Shown piece after piece: positions 19,508-30,263 of a DNA stretch of 33,020 nucleotides (within the stretch, counting starts at the first letter, position 1; every line of letters starts with the position of its first letter). Position numbers and translations under genes: made by a program. Under the pieces are notes generated by a model. The model had not been told where the DNA came from, made no database searches, and saw nothing but the letters and a program-made list of their open reading frames with translations. Source of the stretch: Gammaproteobacteria bacterium (GTDB lineage Bacteria > Pseudomonadota > Gammaproteobacteria > SZUA-229). The DNA lies in assembly GCA_026195255.1 (NCBI GenBank), contig JAPHSS010000042.1, positions 1 through 33,020 of the forward strand. Reading direction: 5' to 3'.

Positions 19508-19527
19508 GGACAGACTCATAACTGTCC
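19508..19527 (+). terminator. Hairpin downstream of the peroxidase gene
   Basis: GGACAG (19508-19513) pairs with CTGTCC (19522-19527) around an 8-base loop, about 43 bases after the stop. No T run follows. The GGACAG/CTGTCC core also occurs in the repeat at 27228-27418, so it may be a repeat relic rather than a terminator. Confidence 0.35.
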
Positions 19528-19613: not shown

Positions 19614-21569
19614 TTATTGATCACTGAGCCAGTAAAAATGATAAGGAGGTATTACCAGCTGATTTTTAAACATAGCCGGTGTATCACCTGAAATCAGATC
19701 TATGATATGTCCATAGGAAAGCACAGATTTAATTTGAGGATTTGCCATATCCAGATACTGTGGATTGGCATCAAAATTCACCACGACTAATACACCTCCT
19801 GAGGTACGAGTCAGATTGAATCTCGAAAAAACAAACAGGTGTGGATTATCTACGTAGATTAACTCGCGATTATTAAAATCAGCAAATGCGAGTATTTCCT
19901 TGCGCACCGCGATCATTTTTTTAATGGCATTAAAAATCTGCTGTTCAATGGTGCCCGGCTGATGCCTCAGTTCTGCTTTGTCCCAATCAAAATTAGGCCG
20001 ATGTGCCCAGCGACTATCGAGGGCTTTGTTTTCATCATTAAGAAAATCACTTTCATTTAACGTACCCAGTTCGTCACCATAATACAATAACGGTAAGCCA
20101 CCGAATGAAAGAATCAGACTGTGCAAAAGCAGTATGTGTTGTATCGCATTATCAATGCGTTTGGGCTCATTAGATTCTAGCGCTGTTTCCAGTCCGACAA
20201 GAGACGCTAATGAACCAGAAATACGTGCATCGCCGGTTTTTAGATTATGTCCGAAAGGAAACCCCCGGGCATCCGAATCACTGAAATTACCAGTGTAATA
20301 ATCAAGCAGAAATTTTCGATGCTCGACAGGTTCATAACCTACCGCATGGATATCTGCGTCATCAAAACCCAGACCAATATCATCATGGCAACGTACGTAG
20401 TTTAACCAGGTGGCCCGTTCCAGTTTATCCGGCAGGCTCCTTAAACCCTGGTACAACAATTTTGCATTTTTGGTGGCCACGGCATCCCACATCAACGCCA
20501 TGAAAGTCGCATTGTAGGCAATCTCACATTCTTTTGCATTGATGGCATCTTCACCAAAATATTTGGTGATTTCCGATGGCGCCACAATAGCCTCGGCAAT
20601 AAATAACACACCCGGTGCAGTCACCTGACAACAGTCTTTCATCAATTGTAATATCAGATGGGCCTCGCGTTCATTTTGAGAGACGCTGCCAATTTTTTTC
20701 CATAAGAAAGCCACCGCATCGAGTCGAATAATATCCGCGCCCTGGTTAGACCAAAACAGGATAATGTCGAGCATTTCAATAAACACGGCGGGGTTACTAT
20801 AATTAAGATCCCACTGGAAATTATTAAATACGGTCATTACCCATTTATTCATTTCCTCGTCCCAGGTAAAATTACCTGGCGCAGTTTCCGGAAAAATTTC
20901 AGGCATGGTTTCTTCAAACATATCGGGAATTTCACGATTATCGAACAGGTAATAATAATCCTGATATTTTTTCTCACCCTTACGCGCGCGTTTTGCCCAG
21001 TCATGTTCGTCGGATGTGTGATTAACCACTACATCCATGGTTAACAAAATATCTCTCTTTTCCAGTGATTCACTCAGCTTATGCAAATCCTCATTAGTAC
21101 CAATACGACTATCCACCCGACGAAAATCACTGATGGCATAACCGCCATCACTTTTGCCATCAGGACATGCCAGAATCGGCATGATATGAATCATATTCAC
21201 GCCAAGCTCCTGAAAATAAAACAGCTTGTCTGTCAGACCACTCAGATTATTGGCAAAACCGTCTGTATACAGGGCCATGCCCACCCACTTCTGACTCAGA
21301 AACCAGTTATGGTCTTTTTCGCGTTCGATATCTTTTCTTTTAAGTTGTTCAGAACGATCCATATATTGCCGAGCCATCGCCTCAACCAGACATAAAGCCT
21401 GATCTTCGAAATCGTCACGATCGCCGTATAACAAATGAAACAGGGAATGAATTGCGTAAAAATTAGCACCCAGTCGGGTATAAAAATGCCTTAACTCATG
21501 TTGTTTGATTTCTGAATTTAATTTAATCAGTATTTCATTGAGTAAGGAATGTGAGACTTGTTCATACAT
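19614..21569 (-). CDS. ams: Amylosucrase (GH13)
   Basis: Cytoplasmic GH13 enzyme that uses sucrose to extend alpha-1,4-glucan, releasing fructose. The 651-residue protein has the long helical N domain of amylosucrases (about 1-90). The catalytic barrel has the nucleophile D284 (IIRLDAVAFLW), acid/base E326 (LFIAEAIVAP), and transition-state residues H395-D396 (YVRCHDDIG). These lie within a few residues of D286, E328 and H392-D393 of Neisseria amylosucrase. DVVVNHTS (179-186) is GH13 region I. Sucrose hydrolase or sucrose phosphorylase are alternatives, but N-domain length and gene context favour amylosucrase. Last gene of the sucrose operon, 100 bases after fruK. Confidence 0.88.
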   Translation of the reverse strand: MYEQVSHSLLNEILIKLNSEIKQHELRHFYTRLGANFYAIHSLFHLLYGDRDDFEDQALCLVEAMARQYMDRSEQLKRKDIEREKDHNWFLSQKWVGMALYTDGFANNLSGLTDKLFYFQELGVNMIHIMPILACPDGKSDGGYAISDFRRVDSRIGTNEDLHKLSESLEKRDILLTMDVVVNHTSDEHDWAKRARKGEKKYQDYYYLFDNREIPDMFEETMPEIFPETAPGNFTWDEEMNKWVMTVFNNFQWDLNYSNPAVFIEMLDIILFWSNQGADIIRLDAVAFLWKKIGSVSQNEREAHLILQLMKDCCQVTAPGVLFIAEAIVAPSEITKYFGEDAINAKECEIAYNATFMALMWDAVATKNAKLLYQGLRSLPDKLERATWLNYVRCHDDIGLGFDDADIHAVGYEPVEHRKFLLDYYTGNFSDSDARGFPFGHNLKTGDARISGSLASLVGLETALESNEPKRIDNAIQHILLLHSLILSFGGLPLLYYGDELGTLNESDFLNDENKALDSRWAHRPNFDWDKAELRHQPGTIEQQIFNAIKKMIAVRKEILAFADFNNRELIYVDNPHLFVFSRFNLTRTSGGVLVVVNFDANPQYLDMANPQIKSVLSYGHIIDLISGDTPAMFKNQLVIPPYHFYWLSDQ

Positions 21570-21669
21570 AATATTTAAGCTAATTAGTTTTTATTGTTAT
21601 ATTGATGCTGGCAGATTTTTTTGATATTTACAAACGAGTACTACCATTCACAAATTCAAATCGACAAAT

Positions 21670-22551
21670 TTACAACTGCCAGGCCTCGATAAAGGGTTCG
21701 TAAAATGTTTTATCCTGGGTTGTCGCCCCACGCTGCTGAACCACTGCACTGGCAAAGTGCTGAGCTCGATTCAATATTTCCTGCAATGGCCAGGCCTTGT
21801 GCAAACCTAATAATAGTACACTAGTGAAAGCATCGCCGGCACCGACAGTGTCTACCACATGACTGATGGTTTCCGGAAACACTGAACAGCGTTCATCTAA
21901 CCTCGCCGCAATAGCCCCATCCCCACCTCTGGTAACAACAACTAACTTAACATTCGTACTGGTTAATAAAAATTCCATCCTTGATTCGATATCTGTGTGC
22001 TGCGGAACAACTAATGCCAGTTCTTCGGCATTGAGTTTTATACACTGCCCGCTTTGCATAATATTCTGAATTAGCGACAGACCCCACCAGGGCGGTCGTA
22101 AATTAACATCAATAAAAACCGACTTAAAACCTTGTTGTTTTAAATCTGCCAGACTTCTTGCGGAGACAGGATTTCTTAGCGCAAGGGAGCCATGATATAA
22201 GGTACTGTGTTTATCGATTTCTGGTGTTTCCTGATAATCAATAAAATCCCAGGCACTGTTTTTCACAATATCATATGAGGGTTCACCATCATTAAAACTG
22301 ACATCGACAATGCCGGTGGCATGGGCAGAATCCAGCTGCAGACCTGAAACATCCAGCCCCCAGTTTTGCATGGCTGACCTTACTTCCTGACCCAGTGAAT
22401 CATCTCCCACCCGTGATATAAACAAAGGCCGTAAACCAAATGCCTGACAGTGCCACGCCACATTAAAGGGAGCACCACCCAGGACACGTGTGCCGTCGGG
22501 GAAACAGTCAAACAATACCTCACCAAATATAACGAGTTCTGAATGACTCAT
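21670..22551 (-). CDS. fruK: Fructokinase (PfkB/ribokinase family)
   Basis: Phosphorylates fructose to fructose-6-phosphate. The 293-residue protein shows the PfkB layout: an N-terminal substrate motif GGAPFNVAWH (25-34), the NLRPPWW stretch of fructokinases (150-156), VVTRGGDGA, and the anion hole/catalytic base motif DTVGAGDAF (234-242). Its start overlaps the stop of the sucrose-phosphatase gene by 4 bases, so it is translationally coupled. In the operon it recycles fructose freed by amylosucrase, giving the SPS substrate again. The symbol fruK follows usage in methylotroph sucrose clusters, not the E. coli 1-phosphofructokinase. Confidence 0.9.
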   Translation of the reverse strand: MSHSELVIFGEVLFDCFPDGTRVLGGAPFNVAWHCQAFGLRPLFISRVGDDSLGQEVRSAMQNWGLDVSGLQLDSAHATGIVDVSFNDGEPSYDIVKNSAWDFIDYQETPEIDKHSTLYHGSLALRNPVSARSLADLKQQGFKSVFIDVNLRPPWWGLSLIQNIMQSGQCIKLNAEELALVVPQHTDIESRMEFLLTSTNVKLVVVTRGGDGAIAARLDERCSVFPETISHVVDTVGAGDAFTSVLLLGLHKAWPLQEILNRAQHFASAVVQQRGATTQDKTFYEPFIEAWQL

Positions 22552-23393
22552 TTTTCACCTCGAATCCAGTTTTCTGCCTGTGGAATATAGTGCACGACGC
22601 CTTCCAGTATGCCTGCGCTGTAATTGCCATTCATATCCATAAAATTACCCTGTGCCAGATATAAGGAGCTTTGCTGATGATTTAGCTGTGCCTGCCTGAC
22701 AGCCTCGTGCCGAACGTCTTCTTCAGCATTGGCGACCAGTATCGACTGAATCTGGCTGCTCATAACACCAATATCATTACCGCTATCACCGGCAAAAACG
22801 GTGTCAGAATAATCAAATTTCAATTGTTGCATTAGAAATTCAATCGCCTGGCGTTTACCGGCACTGGCAGGTAAGACATCGAGCAGTCCAGTATTCGCCA
22901 GTTGATCGACACTCCAGATCAAATTGGCTTTTATAGACTGTTGTTGTAACAAGTTTTGCATTGCTGCAATAATTTTCTGATGATCATGCTTAAGCGTTAC
23001 ATAATAACTGAGCTTGTGAGTATTTTGTTTACTCTCTTCCTGGCGCTTCAGGCCTTCGAGATCAACCAGCAAACTATGCAGTTGATTTGCATTTTTACCC
23101 TGCCAGTCCTGTTCAATAAAGCGCTCCCACTGTTGCTGATAATGCCAGTCATGCCCCTTTATTTCATAAATTGTCGAACCCACATCAGCGATAACATAAT
23201 CCGCTTGCGGTAATTGATATTCATCTATGGCCTGCTTTACCAGTTGTTGATGACGGCCGGTAACATAAACCAGTGTTACCTGTGGATGTTGTACCAGACG
23301 GTTAAAATTTTTTCTCGCATTCGCAGACTCAGGCTCAGGCCCATTGGGCAATAAAGTGCGATCAAGATCGGTGCACAATAATAAACGCCTCAC
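22548..23393 (-). CDS. spp: Sucrose-6-phosphate phosphatase
   Basis: HAD-IIB hydrolase that releases sucrose from sucrose-6-phosphate, pulling synthesis forward. The 281-residue protein has an intact nucleophile motif DLDRT (9-13), YVTGR (motif II), and the acidic GDSGND motif near residue 200, so it should be active. The cap domain lies about 95-180. The start overlaps the SPS stop and the end overlaps the fructokinase start, each by 4 bases. The S6PP family and operon position between SPS and fructokinase support the assignment over mannosylglycerate-type phosphatases. Confidence 0.92.
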   Translation of the reverse strand: MRRLLLCTDLDRTLLPNGPEPESANARKNFNRLVQHPQVTLVYVTGRHQQLVKQAIDEYQLPQADYVIADVGSTIYEIKGHDWHYQQQWERFIEQDWQGKNANQLHSLLVDLEGLKRQEESKQNTHKLSYYVTLKHDHQKIIAAMQNLLQQQSIKANLIWSVDQLANTGLLDVLPASAGKRQAIEFLMQQLKFDYSDTVFAGDSGNDIGVMSSQIQSILVANAEEDVRHEAVRQAQLNHQQSSLYLAQGNFMDMNGNYSAGILEGVVHYIPQAENWIRGEK

Positions 23394-25552
23394 TTTTCTG
23401 GCACCTTACAGCTTTTAAAAAAGTCGTAATATTCAATCGCTTCTAAAATGCCAGCGGCATAGGGTTGCCTGGCAAAATACACCTGCTCTAATTCAATCAG
23501 GTCGGATAACTCTTCATGGTGCCGGTTGGCCACCAGCACTGCCAATGTATTACCGCGAATCATATCTTCATCGGCTCCCGAACCTCCGGCGACCAGAATA
23601 TGATTCAGCGGAATCTCCCACTGTTCAGCATACCAGCGTAAAGCCAGCCCCTTGGATGCTCTTACCGGTATTATGTCGAGAAACTGGCCAAAGGAAAACA
23701 CCACATTAGTGGTTTGTTCATGCTGCAATAAAAGTTGCCTGATATCATCTACATCCATGGCTTTTGCCGCATCATAGAAATAGCTGATCTTGTAACGACT
23801 TTGTTCGGCCTTGGGCTGCAGACGTAAACCGGGAAGGTCTTTGAGAATGTCGCGAACTTTAGCCGGCCGCCATAAATAATCGATATGATCGGTCCAGGCC
23901 GTGTCGCGGGTTAAATTCGAACCGTAGTAAATTTCTGTGCCGAGGCTGGTCACCAGCGCATCAGGATAAGGAAGTTTATTTGCCTTGATTAATTTCAACG
24001 CCGAATCCAGTCGCCGCCCGGTAGCAATACCAAAACTACTGCACCTGGCATTTTCCTTAATAGCACGAGAAAAATCAGGCAGCATTTTTTTGTCACCCAG
24101 CAGACTCTGGTCCAGATCTGAAAATATAGCTCGATCACGATACAGCCGTGTACGACGACGCAACTCCATACGCACCACAGGCTCGGTTTCTTCAATAATC
24201 GGTTTTATAACTTTTAAATATTTTTCAGCATGGGCCTGCCATGAATAATGCTCATTGACACCGGCAATGCCATTTTCTGCGAGTTTTTGCCATTTAGATT
24301 TATCATTAATCACGGCGAGTAGTTTTTCGGCAATCATATCCTTATCTAATGGATCAATCAGATAACCATTACCGCAGTTTTCAATAATGTCCGTGGGCCC
24401 GCCATCCTCTGTCGCCACAATAGGTAAACCACTGGCGGCCGCTTCAATCAAGGTCAAACCAAAAGGCTCGGTTAGAGCGGGATTGATAAACACACCGCCG
24501 GAAAGCGCTGCAAGACGATATAACACTGAAACATCGTCAGACTGATGATGTTTAGGATAAGCAATTTTGCCATATAAATCATACTGATCGATACTCAGTA
24601 AACAATCGGTCAGCACCTCCTGGGGGCCCGCCTCCATTTCCCGAATATCATCACGGTTACCCGCGACTATCACCAGGTTAGCAAGCTGCTGTAACTCTTG
24701 CGATTCGCCAAACGCTTCAATCAGGGTGATAATATTTTTTCTTTGATCGGGGCGAGATATAGCCAGCACCATGGGTTTATCGGGTTGCTTTAAAAATCGC
24801 TTGAGCTCGCAGGCTATCTCACTTTTAAATTCGTCGCCCAGAGGAGGATGAAATTTTATTAGATCAGTTCCTGGTGGCACCACCCGCATCTGATCCGGTT
24901 GATAATAATCATATAATTCGTATTGCTCTTCAATTTCCTGATGCGTGCTGGTAATGACCCTGTCAACTGCCCCCAGAGTCGCTTCCTCGGCATTGATTCG
25001 ACGTGACATGTTATAGCGGTTTTCTATCACATCACGCTTAATACCACTGGCCAATAAGTGTTTTCGTTTACTGCGCCCTAATGAATGCCCGGTATGAACA
25101 AGTGGCACACTTAATTGATGTGATAAACGCGTACCGACATAACCTGCATCGGCATAATGACTGTGAATAATGTGGGGTGTGAGTTTATTATTGTGGAGAT
25201 AATTAAGCAGATTATCGGCAAAACTATCGAGATGATCCCAAAGCTGCTCCTTGGGTATATAAAGCTGATCAGCACAATCGATTCGAATAATATTAACCTT
25301 GTCACCAAGTGGTTCGATGCGTTTGGCATAATCACGACTAACAGTCTTATCATCTATTCGCCGGGTCACGAGGTCGACTCTGGCGACATTCGGCTGATCA
25401 CCTAAAACCCGAGCCAGCTCAACCACATATTTACTTTGGCCTCCGGTATCCGCATCTCGACCTAACTCTAATTCATCACCCCGTATCAGGCCATGCACGC
25501 TGATTAAAAGTAAATAAAGTTTGTCCTGTGGAGGATTCATAATAGATATCAT
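23390..25552 (-). CDS. sps: Sucrose-phosphate synthase with C-terminal HAD domain
   Basis: GT4 glycosyltransferase that joins UDP-glucose and fructose-6-phosphate to sucrose-6-phosphate. The 720-residue protein has a GT-B fold (about 10-465) with HGLIRG, DADTGGQSKYVVELA (33-47) and the EPFGLTLIEAAASGLP donor-site motif. A second domain (about 470-715) is a phosphatase-like HAD fold: DLDQS at 479-483 and GGSGADEDM near 655. In the HAD acidic motif the usual first D of GDSGND is G here, and the nucleophile motif ends in S, suggesting low or no phosphatase activity, as for the equivalent plant domain. The start may be at 25540 (MNPPQDK). First gene of the sps-spp-fruK-ams operon. Confidence 0.92.
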   Translation of the reverse strand: MISIMNPPQDKLYLLLISVHGLIRGDELELGRDADTGGQSKYVVELARVLGDQPNVARVDLVTRRIDDKTVSRDYAKRIEPLGDKVNIIRIDCADQLYIPKEQLWDHLDSFADNLLNYLHNNKLTPHIIHSHYADAGYVGTRLSHQLSVPLVHTGHSLGRSKRKHLLASGIKRDVIENRYNMSRRINAEEATLGAVDRVITSTHQEIEEQYELYDYYQPDQMRVVPPGTDLIKFHPPLGDEFKSEIACELKRFLKQPDKPMVLAISRPDQRKNIITLIEAFGESQELQQLANLVIVAGNRDDIREMEAGPQEVLTDCLLSIDQYDLYGKIAYPKHHQSDDVSVLYRLAALSGGVFINPALTEPFGLTLIEAAASGLPIVATEDGGPTDIIENCGNGYLIDPLDKDMIAEKLLAVINDKSKWQKLAENGIAGVNEHYSWQAHAEKYLKVIKPIIEETEPVVRMELRRRTRLYRDRAIFSDLDQSLLGDKKMLPDFSRAIKENARCSSFGIATGRRLDSALKLIKANKLPYPDALVTSLGTEIYYGSNLTRDTAWTDHIDYLWRPAKVRDILKDLPGLRLQPKAEQSRYKISYFYDAAKAMDVDDIRQLLLQHEQTTNVVFSFGQFLDIIPVRASKGLALRWYAEQWEIPLNHILVAGGSGADEDMIRGNTLAVLVANRHHEELSDLIELEQVYFARQPYAAGILEAIEYYDFFKSCKVPEK

Positions 25553-26353: not shown

Positions 26354-27175
26354 ATGAAATACAGCGGCAACATTCAGAAGATGCAAACCAAACTTGATGA
26401 TACTGTGTTTTATCACCTGCCAATAGGTGATGACCTGGTAGATATGAATGTTTTAATAGGCTCAGAAATCAAGCTGACTTATCAAGGTGAAATTAACTGT
26501 GTATCCTGCGATCGCAAGACGAAAAAGAGCTTTGCCCAGGGTTTCTGTTACCCCTGTTTTCAATCATTAGCACAGTGTGATATGTGCATTATGAAACCAG
26601 AAAAATGTCATTACGCAGAAGGCACATGCAGAGAGCCGCAATGGGGTGAACAATTTTGCCTGCAAGACCATTATGTTTATCTGGCAAACTCTTCAGGGCT
26701 AAAAGTGGGCATCACCCGCGGCACACAAATTCCAACGCGCTGGATGGATCAGGGCGCGACGCAGGCAATTCCTATTTTCAGAGTTAAAAATCGCTTAACA
26801 TCAGGCTTAGTTGAAGTTATTTTTAAAAATCACGTGGCGGATAAAACCAGTTGGCAAAAAATGCTAAAAGGTGAGGCAAATAATGTTGATATGCAATCTC
26901 GCCGCGATGAGCTTTACGAATTAAGTAAAGACGCATTAATTGAATTATCTGACTCATTAGACAGTGATGCTATTGAGTTTCTGGAAAATGAATCTGTGGT
27001 CGATATTAATTTCCCCGTCAATCAGTATCCGCAAAAAGTTAAATCATTTAACTTTGATAAGACACCTGAGGTTAGTGGCGTATTGAATGGTATTAAAGGA
27101 CAATATTTAATTCTCGACAATGGCGTGTTAAATATGCGCAAGTTTGGCGGTTATAACTTAACACTTGAAACCTGA
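26354..27175 (+). CDS. DUF2797 family protein
   Basis: A 273-residue cytoplasmic protein. A cysteine-rich region at about 49-92 (CVSC, FCYPCF, CDMC, then two more cysteines) is likely a metal-binding module. It is followed by YLANSSGLKVGITR, which resembles the start of a GIY-YIG-like domain, and by helical and beta segments to the end. DUF2797 proteins carry this zinc-ribbon plus GIY-YIG-like order. No catalytic activity is known to me for the family. The full length is normal. A long inverted repeat begins about 53 bases after the stop. Confidence 0.88.
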   Translation: MKYSGNIQKMQTKLDDTVFYHLPIGDDLVDMNVLIGSEIKLTYQGEINCVSCDRKTKKSFAQGFCYPCFQSLAQCDMCIMKPEKCHYAEGTCREPQWGEQFCLQDHYVYLANSSGLKVGITRGTQIPTRWMDQGATQAIPIFRVKNRLTSGLVEVIFKNHVADKTSWQKMLKGEANNVDMQSRRDELYELSKDALIELSDSLDSDAIEFLENESVVDINFPVNQYPQKVKSFNFDKTPEVSGVLNGIKGQYLILDNGVLNMRKFGGYNLTLET

Positions 27176-27227: not shown

Positions 27228-27418
27228 TGCGCTCCGTTAAGGATCATTTCCCTCGGGGAAAGACCGCCGTTTTTTGGCGCTCTGTCCCCTGATTGAGACC
27301 ACCGAGAGTTGTGCAGAGTCGTTCATCGCTCTGCCAATCAGATTGGAATTACCACATGGGACAGGGCGCTAAAAAGCAGCGGACTGTCCCTGATGGAGAT
27401 ATTCCTTAACAGGGCGCA
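27228..27418. repeat. Nested inverted-repeat element
   Basis: A 61-base left arm (27228-27288) and a 61-base right arm (27358-27418) are inverted repeats at roughly 45 of 61 positions. Both begin TGCGC on their own strand and end CTGTCCC inside. Each arm also folds on itself: GGGACAG/CTGTCCC flank a GC-rich stem in the right arm, and GGGG/CCCC with a GCC stem in the left. The 69-base centre has CTGATTG/CAATCAG and GCAGAG/CTCTGC stems. No coding frame fits. A REP/BIME-like pair or a foldback MITE are the likeliest explanations. Confidence 0.8.
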
Positions 27419-27475: not shown

Positions 27476-27766
27476 TTACCTGGATGCTAAATGCACTTCA
27501 CCTGACTCTCGCTCACCCATTTCAAAACCATGATGATAGGCTTTATGCCATTCCATTATCTGGTCTTTCTTATGTATAGATTCATCATCCAGTGTTAGAT
27601 GACTCAACTTTTCTGCAAAGCCATTTTTATTAAAATAGCTTACAACCCCATTGGCATACCCCCGGTTGTACCAGAGCTGCGCATCAGAAGGGTTATCCAG
27701 ATAATCATGGGTTTCAGCGTATAATTTATCTACCAGGCCTACTAATTTATCAATTACTGTCATCAT
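27476..27766 (-). CDS. Hypothetical protein
   Basis: A 96-residue mainly helical, soluble protein rich in aromatic residues and histidine (LWYNRGYANGVVSYFN, MEWHKAYHHGFEMGER). It has no signal peptide. It starts with two ATG codons 2 bases after the stop of the 111-residue gene, so the two are surely co-transcribed. No family recognised. Confidence 0.7.
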   Translation of the reverse strand: MMTVIDKLVGLVDKLYAETHDYLDNPSDAQLWYNRGYANGVVSYFNKNGFAEKLSHLTLDDESIHKKDQIMEWHKAYHHGFEMGERESGEVHLASR

Positions 27767-28205: not shown

Positions 28206-30263
28206 ATGACCACAAAACGTAAAATCCTTATCACGAGCGCACTACCCTATGCCAATGGCCCAATTCATCTTGGTCACCTGGTTGAATATATTCAAACGGA
28301 TATCTGGGCACGATTTCAAAAAATGCGTGGCCATGAGTGCCATTATGTCTGTGCAGATGATGCACACGGCACGCCTATTATGTTACGTGCACGTCAGGAT
28401 GGCATTACTCCAGAGCAGTTAATAGCAGAGGTAAGTCGTGATCACCAGGCTGACTTTTCCGATTTTCTAATTGGCTTTGATAATTATCACAGCACTCACT
28501 CAGAAGAGAATAAGGAACTATCTCAGAGCATTTATCGAACCTTACGAGATAACGGTCATATTGCTACGCGCACTATTTCACAGGCTTATGACCCTGAAGC
28601 AAAAATGTTTTTGCCTGACCGTTTTATTAAAGGCACCTGCCCAAAATGTGGCGCTGAAGATCAATACGGTGATAGCTGCGAAGTATGTGGAGCAACCTAC
28701 GACACGACTGATTTAATTAAACCTTATTCGGTTGTTTCGGGCGCCACCCCCATCAAAAAAGATACCGAACATTTCTTCTTTAAACTGGGTGATTTCGAGG
28801 CCATGCTTAAAGAATGGACCACGGCGGGCCATGTGCAGCCTGAAATTGCTAACAAACTAAATGAATGGTTTGAATCAGGTCTGAAAGACTGGGACATTAC
28901 CCGAGATGCGCCTTACTGGGGTTTTGAAATTCCAGACTCTAAAGATAAGTTTTTCTACGTCTGGTTAGATGCACCTATTGGTTATATGGCCAGTTTTAAA
29001 AATTTATGCGATAAAACCGATCTGGATTTCGATGAGTTCTGGAAATCAGAAGACAAAACCGAGCTGTACCACTTCATCGGTAAAGACATTGCTTACTTCC
29101 ATACTTTATTCTGGCCGGCTGTTTTAAAAGGCTCGGGTTACCGCACACCGACTAAAGTTTTCTGTCACGGTTTCTTAACTGTTGATGGTGCAAAAATGTC
29201 AAAGTCTCGCGGCACCTTTATCAAGGCGCGTACTTATCTGGATAATTTAAAACCTGAATATTTACGTTATTATTATGCCGCTAAATTATCATCGGGTGTT
29301 GACGACATCGACTTAAATTTAGAAGATTTTCAACAACGTGTTAATACAGATCTGGTTGGTAAGTTTGTTAACATCGCCTCACGCGTTGCCAGCTTCATTA
29401 AAAAGAACAATGACGGTTTATTATCAGCGTCTTTACCTGCACCTGAATTACATCAAAAAATGATTGATGCAGGTGATTCTATTGCACAACATTATGAAGA
29501 CAGAAAATATTCTCAGGCTACTCGTGAAATAATGACATTAGCTGATAAAGCAAATGAATATATTGCCAATGAAGAACCCTGGGCTAAAAACAAACAGGAG
29601 GGTTTAGAGCAGCAGGTGCATGATATTTGCACACAGGGCATTAATATGTTCCGTATTCTGTGTATTTACTTAAAACCCATATTACCTCAAGTTATTAAGC
29701 AAGCTGAAGATTTTTTAAACTCTGGCGATTTATGCTGGAATGATTTAGATAAACCACTGCTAAATCACAGAATCAATAAATTCAAACCTTTAATGCAACG
29801 AGTTGAAAAAGAAGCCATTGATAATATTATTAATGCATCTAAAGAAGATATTAAAGCCGCCGCACAAAAAACACCGGCCAAAAAATCAAACAAGGATAAA
29901 AACGTGTCTAATACTCCTGTTAACGATGAAATAGCCCCCGAAATTGAATTCGATGATTTTGCTAAAATTGATTTACGTATTGCACGAATTGTAAAAGCAG
30001 AACATGTTGAAAAAGCAGATAAACTATTACAGTTAACGCTGGATATTGGTGGTGAAACACGTAATGTGTTTGCAGGAATTAAGTCTGCTTACGCACCAGA
30101 AGATCTCGAAGGCAAACTCACTGTAATGGTAGCCAATTTGAAACCACGTAAAATGCGTTTTGGCATGTCCGAAGGCATGGTTTTAGCTGCAGGGCCCGGT
30201 GGTAAAGATTTATGGATATTAAACCCGGATGATGGTGCTCAGCCGGGTATGAAAGTTAAATAA
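28206..30263 (+). CDS. metG: Methionyl-tRNA synthetase
   Basis: Cytoplasmic class I synthetase that loads methionine on elongator and initiator tRNA. The 685-residue protein has HLGH at 21-24 and KMSKS at 330-334. A four-cysteine zinc knuckle (C145, C148, C158, C161) lies in the CP insertion. A lysine-rich linker follows (about 555-580). The C-terminal tRNA-binding OB-fold (about 585-685, [16 protein letters not shown] to PGMKVK) promotes dimer formation. This is the full-length, zinc-containing type. The frame starts at ATG in a promoter region shared with the divergent 111-residue gene. A small hairpin (30305-30322) lies after the stop. Confidence 0.98.

Follow-up and report, generated by a model that had tools for sequence, protein, structure and literature searches.

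How did a strongly structured 191-base element come to lie between two reading frames that run towards it, and what kind of element is it? A sequence-only reading of the window (the whole stretch of 33,020 nucleotides analysed here) had drawn attention to positions 27228–27418, described there two 61-base inverted arms that are themselves palindromic, and proposed either selection on structure or a BIME made of two REP units, with a possible part as a double-sided transcription barrier.

Two inverted arms between convergent reading frames

The arms at 27228–27288 and 27358–27418 are indeed inverted copies of each other, identical at 48 of 61 positions without gaps. The runner-up 61-base pair at equal spacing, anywhere in the 33-kb window, has 31 identities, and 20,000 single-base shuffles of the element never reached 48. 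A default repeat search of the window reported no inverted pair, having missed the arms because the longest exact run between them is 8 bases and its exact seed is 9. Each arm is an imperfect hairpin by itself, with the palindromic ends that had been described (GGGG...CCCC on the left, GGGACAG...CTGTCCC on the right), and the RNA fold of the 191 bases has an energy of −107.4 kcal/mol, where dinucleotide shuffles give −58.1 ± 4.3 (z = −11.5).

Matches to a covariance model of one unit (R1, described below) place a complete doublet at 27231–27415 (unstranded), within 3 bases of 27228–27418, with the heads of its two units pointing inward and their tails outward. The left unit (27231–27300, minus strand, 84.0 bits) comprises an upstream part, a hairpin and the outer tail GAGGGAAATGATCCTTAACGGAGC; its hairpin, GGGGACAGAGCGCC-AAAAAA-CGGCGGTCTTTCCCC (27255–27289, minus strand), is mismatched at positions 6 and 10 of the stem, as in most units of the family. 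The right unit (27345–27415, plus strand, 78.8 bits) has the outer tail GATGGAGATATTCCTTAACAGGGC and the hairpin GGGACAGGGCGCT-AAAAAGC-AGCGGACTGTCCC (27358–27390, plus strand). Between the hairpins, the sequence and an alignment of 40 doublets delimit a spacer (27290–27357, unstranded) with inverted-repeat stretches of its own. In the window, R1 recognised these two arms and nothing else; its next matches, at 28867–28922 and antisense to the left hairpin, scored 9.9 and 8.8 bits. The GGACAG/CTGTCC core reported at 19508–19527 is present there as a string, but R1 finds no unit at that place, and we rejected it as a third copy.

On either side, a gene for a DUF2797 protein (26354–27175, plus strand, stop at 27175; Pfam PF10977, E = 7 × 10−105) and a 96-aa ORF (27476–27766, minus strand, stop at 27476; 92% identical in the related genome G002) both read towards the element, so the neighbours are convergent, as had been noted, as far as ORFs show. 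An Rfam scan of the window returned nothing at gathering scores, a terminator and promoter scan gave nothing above shuffles and no terminator-like structure followed by a run of T, and plasmid records contained no match. An origin associated with a tRNA was discarded, the window containing no tRNA. Elsewhere in the window, a row of minus-strand genes (19614–25552) encodes an alpha-amylase-family enzyme, a pfkB kinase, a sucrose-phosphate phosphatase and a glycosyltransferase fused to a sucrose-phosphate phosphatase domain; this row is presumably a sucrose-synthesis operon.

A family of hairpin doublets nearly confined to one genus

Searching the own genome (G000) with the element by blastn gave 48 matches, itself included. 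Regular-expression matching at 29 loci yielded 52 matches, from which the removal of 3 antisense matches left 49 units (alignment A1), and R1, a model of one unit, that is, of one arm, was built from this alignment. At E ≤ 0.1, R1 gave 134 matches in the 3.56-Mb genome, among them one palindrome on contig C5 counted on both strands; the number may be low, since 150 of 662 first-look candidates were scored. Eighty of the 134 matches form 40 head-to-head doublets, each a minus-strand unit followed by a plus-strand unit, with a gap between R1 matches of 44–46 bases (exactly 46 in 30 of the 40). A unit measures about 70 nt, its outer tail about 22 bases and the whole element about 185 bases. The genome search for the arms that the sequence-only reading had recommended thus turned up a multi-copy family rather than a single-copy element.

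The remaining 54 matches were counted as singles, although some of them are, by eye, halves of degenerate or interrupted doublets. Inspection of 47 of these 54 revealed a number that belong to a subtype sharing a different upstream sequence, ...ACTACACCGAACATCTTCTGGT; units of this subtype (L154, L160, L165, L166, L167, L170, L181, L187 and others) have CTTTTCAGG...ACTGGGTTACTACACCGAACATCTTCTGGT or parts of it upstream, and their hairpin loop is sometimes longer (CCATGTCCATTGAAAGTGGG). Such units perhaps represent an end of a different element. At several doublets (L080, L081, L083, L089, L094 and L099), the outward continuation is a repeat similar to AATCTCTTTCAGCTCAT...CATCTCGTTCCCACG, which indicates that elements are nested or adjacent.

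Placement was surveyed for 87 of 94 elements (left out were six singles on C68, C69 and C70, plus C38:157), and 83 of the 87 are extragenic, in that an ORF of at least 100 aa overlaps them over at most half of the element. Where both neighbouring ORFs could be read (n = 77), 32 elements lay between convergent, 41 between co-directional and 4 between divergent ORFs, against a background of 49 convergent, 135 co-directional and 46 divergent among all neighbouring ORF pairs in those loci; ORFs were defined by length alone, without a gene caller, and some elements share a gap, hence the counts are not independent. Copies of the family avoid divergent gaps (4 of 77).

Paired bases had been said to be maintained despite the differences between the arms, and this holds for each local hairpin. 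Across A1, the cells of the local hairpin are paired in 94% of cases, compared with 43–58% in slid controls, and 46 cells keep their pairing although both partners have changed, compared with 12.0 ± 2.7 in shuffles (0 of 500 as high), so the covariation test across copies that had been suggested came out positive. The measure counts cells, not events, and two of five measures do not clearly beat shuffles; pairs altered in both partners were unremarkable (31 of 500 shuffles as high), as were further pair types (494 of 500). One common set of stem pairs is found in 17 of the 49 units, and the covariation does not amount to that many independent events, because a handful of inherited unit subtypes carry much of it. 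The two mismatches recur throughout A1: stem position 6 is mismatched in 45 of 49 units (C-T or C-A, with C-G in the other 4) and position 10 in all 49 (G-G or G-A).

Pairing between the arms fares differently. In the 37 doublets compared (3 of the 40 were unparsed), there are 86 stem positions at which the arms disagree; Watson–Crick pairing persists in both local hairpins at 50 of these, whereas arm-to-arm pairing would hold at 9, which identifies the local hairpin as the conserved structure. It is accordingly very improbable that one long hairpin, as a cruciform or as double-stranded RNA, was selected in place of two local ones, even though the minimum-energy fold of a single copy is one long hairpin and RNAalifold on 40 whole doublets (alignment A2) returns a weak mixture of local pairs and some arm-to-arm pairs. 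Selection on structure is therefore visible across copies on the local hairpins, and there alone.

Comparison with relatives shows that the element can be present or absent at one site. The doublet at C29:124137 is in G000 and absent from its close relative G002 at the syntenic place, with matching flanks on both sides (right, 92.9% over 183 bases; left, 92.5% over 7,338). The empty site also lacks some 50 more bases on the left, so the edges of the insertion are not exact, and neither a target-site duplication nor an exact insertion edge is readable at this one empty site. By its letters, the stretch to the right of this doublet is presumably where the RNase P RNA gene begins. The window copy is absent in G001, G002 (neighbouring sequence 94% identical) and G004, in all of which the intergenic gap is wholly diverged; G003 is unreadable there. 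By contrast, the copy at C29:116513 is kept in both G000 and G002 and, by eye, has drifted more than its neighbours, hairpins included.

All four other genomes of the genus that were searched have units (32, at least 116, 39 and at least 116 matches; up to 125 candidates were scored per genome, so that counts near 125 are lower bounds). Outside the genus, 2 of 49 genomes of the host's taxonomic family matched at E ≤ 0.001 in a search with stricter filters and 92 candidates scored per genome: G061 with 2 matches, which form a doublet with a 46-base gap, and G063 with 5. In a second outgroup search, none of 20 genomes from other genera of that taxonomic family matched, and elsewhere in the class one genome of 15 did (E = 0.0019). 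Named genomes scanned with a strict pattern gave 19 stretches, all in the MAG Gammaproteobacteria bacterium N1D-Bin_4; judging by this one named match, a Gammaproteobacteria assembly, the host genus is apparently gammaproteobacterial. The repeat family is thus nearly confined to one genus.

The GGGGWSAS head, Y1 transposase genes and known repeat systems

The consensus unit has the head GGGGACAG, which fits the motif GGGGWSAS, and the exact motif occurs in 84 of 128 units (motif and identity counts cover 128 of the 134). Some units are GGGGTCAG variants with a matching tail, and in G063 hairpins of the GGGGTCAG and GGGGACAG types are neighbours (L203, L206). Among the papers listed by a literature search for the string GGGGACAG, all were unrelated. 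According to PMC3733652, GGGGWSAS is the motif of the terminal repeats of Y1 genes named TIRYT, and S. maltophilia has TIR repeats that are self-complementary and closely spaced. PMC6006769 places 20 of 26 of those TIRYT genes in subclass 2.1, reports no REP-like sequences found near subclass 2.1 genes, and leaves open what GGGGWSAS transposases recognise.

A RAYT gene had been suggested as a companion to look for, and genes of the wider class exist: Y1_Tnp (IS200-like) loci number 7 in the own genome and 9 in the four other genus genomes. None of the 7 own loci holds a convincing unit by R1 within up to 1.5 kb on each side (best 11.6 bits, E = 0.24), several of these flanks ending at contig ends. 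GGGGWSAS motifs are present at 4 of the 6 own loci scanned for them (all except L037), as GGGGTCAG in L031, L033 and L035 and as GGGGACAC in L032; L034 and L036 have none. Across all 16 loci, R1 found convincing units at one, L067 of G001 (46.7, 38.7 and 29.1 bits), where a Y1 gene with a frameshift has the weak 29.1-bit unit immediately on its 5′ side and GGGGTCAGAGCA repeats on both sides, the outer repeats being GGGGTCAG. The lack of a convincing unit at the own loci, the frameshift, the low unit scores and the GGGGTCAG outer repeats count against a role for Y1 enzymes, as does G063 (68% complete), where the 5 unit matches are accompanied by no Y1 hit.

Separately, an insertion-sequence end, AATGGCACTAAGTTAAG, has 11 exact occurrences in the own genome, and loci L190–L199 are such end sites (G000 contigs C17, C24, C36, C37, C38, C40, C49, C53, C58 and C64). 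Ten of the 11 flanks end in a GGG(A/T)CA(G/C)-type motif; 8 of these motifs belong to units of this family, and the other two to a GGGGTCAG and a GGGGACAC repeat. Independent insertions are fewer than ends, since many ends lie at contig ends and one insertion may contribute two, and the inner letters differ between ends, which points to more than one related insertion sequence. A 128-aa ORF beside the end in L195 had no Pfam match; we presume a likeness to IS4-family transposases. REP-targeting insertion sequences have been described before (PMC1525189).

REPINs and BIMEs likewise consist of two inverted imperfect palindromes at a defined spacing, extragenic and in high copy, and their inverted REP doublets are linked to RAYTs (PMC3116915), but the family here lacks the GTAG/GTGG tag and its units are about 70 nt long with tails. 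One of the tags GTAG, GTGG and CGTC stands no more than 6 nt from a hairpin foot in 2 of 121 units. REPIN doublets are, according to PMC3116915, clearly more conserved than singles, whereas here mean identity is 67.2% for doublet units (n = 80) and 66.3% for single units (n = 48), a comparison made with no significance test. The scarcity of tags and the slight difference between doublets and singles argue that this is not a canonical REP family; of the proposed BIME of two REP units, the multi-copy, extragenic inverted doublet stands and the canonical REP tag does not.

CGTC-tagged palindromic repeats are also high-copy inverted dimers between genes and, in PMC3733652, are not associated with transposase genes; here, 119 of 121 units are without GTAG, GTGG or CGTC. 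That paper places GTAG and CGTC REPs, too, mainly between unidirectional and convergent ORFs. The TIRYT GGGGWSAS families (PMC3733652; mostly subclass 2.1, PMC6006769) share the motif that the head fits, and their published TIR repeats are also dimers, some of them self-complementary. They are described as moderately abundant, the family here having 134 matches; here, moreover, there are outer tails and a near-fixed spacer, and no intact Y1 gene with this very repeat was found among the 16 loci. We therefore regard the family as REPIN-like in its working, with the GGGGWSAS repeat families as its nearest kind.

Probable mobilisation in trans and rival readings

Our reading is that the window element is probably a copy of a non-autonomous, REPIN/BIME-like doublet moved in trans by a Y1 transposase; the repeat resembles a small DNA parasite that depends on the enzyme of a different element for its movement. 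The mobile piece would be built from two units, each an imperfect hairpin starting with GGGGACAG and followed by its outer tail, that face each other across the near-fixed spacer. The enzyme would most likely be a Y1 transposase (HuH, IS200-like) of the TIRYT/RAYT kind that, supplied in trans, recognises the single-stranded hairpins at both ends and moves the doublet as one piece; single units would for the most part be remnants or belong to a side branch. The involvement of a Y1 enzyme, its identity and the origin of the singles we infer rather than observe; the mobilisation is suggested by the GGGGWSAS motifs at Y1 genes, the weak unit beside the Y1 gene of G001, the fit of the GGGGACAG head, the GGGGTCAG variants and the hairpin pairs of G063.

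Inverted ends, a near-fixed length and presence or absence at one site would equally suit a MITE of a DDE-type insertion sequence, whose terminal inverted repeats, the roughly 60-base arms, would be cut by a double-strand DNA transposase. We nevertheless consider this unlikely: the one empty site shows no target-site duplication, each end is a covarying hairpin with common mismatches, which a DDE end does not need, and no longer copy with a gene between the units came to notice among the R1 matches. It is quite unlikely, too, that the copies are host-selected functional RNAs or 3′-end elements, such as bidirectional terminators, protectors of mRNA 3′ ends or protein-binding sites. Their strong hairpins, their frequent position between convergent ORFs and their avoidance of divergent gaps would fit such a role, but the same placement would follow if insertion were least harmful there, and the Rfam and terminator scans returned neither a known RNA nor a site with a T run. 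Moreover, the window site is empty in G001, G002 and G004, and the older copy common to G000 and G002 has base changes within its hairpins.

The family may, rather tentatively, join two things mostly described apart, the REP-type hairpin doublets and the TIRYT GGGGWSAS repeats: GGGGWSAS could be the head of a hairpin that the transposase recognises, with the mismatches at positions 6 and 10 forming part of the code, and an unrelated insertion sequence appears to insert into this very motif. The analysis gives a name to a repeat family that amounts to more than a hundred hairpins and recurs across several genomes of a single genus, and its units with GGGGACAG or GGGGTCAG heads and matching tails offer a natural set of variants for studying how transposases recognise GGGGWSAS.
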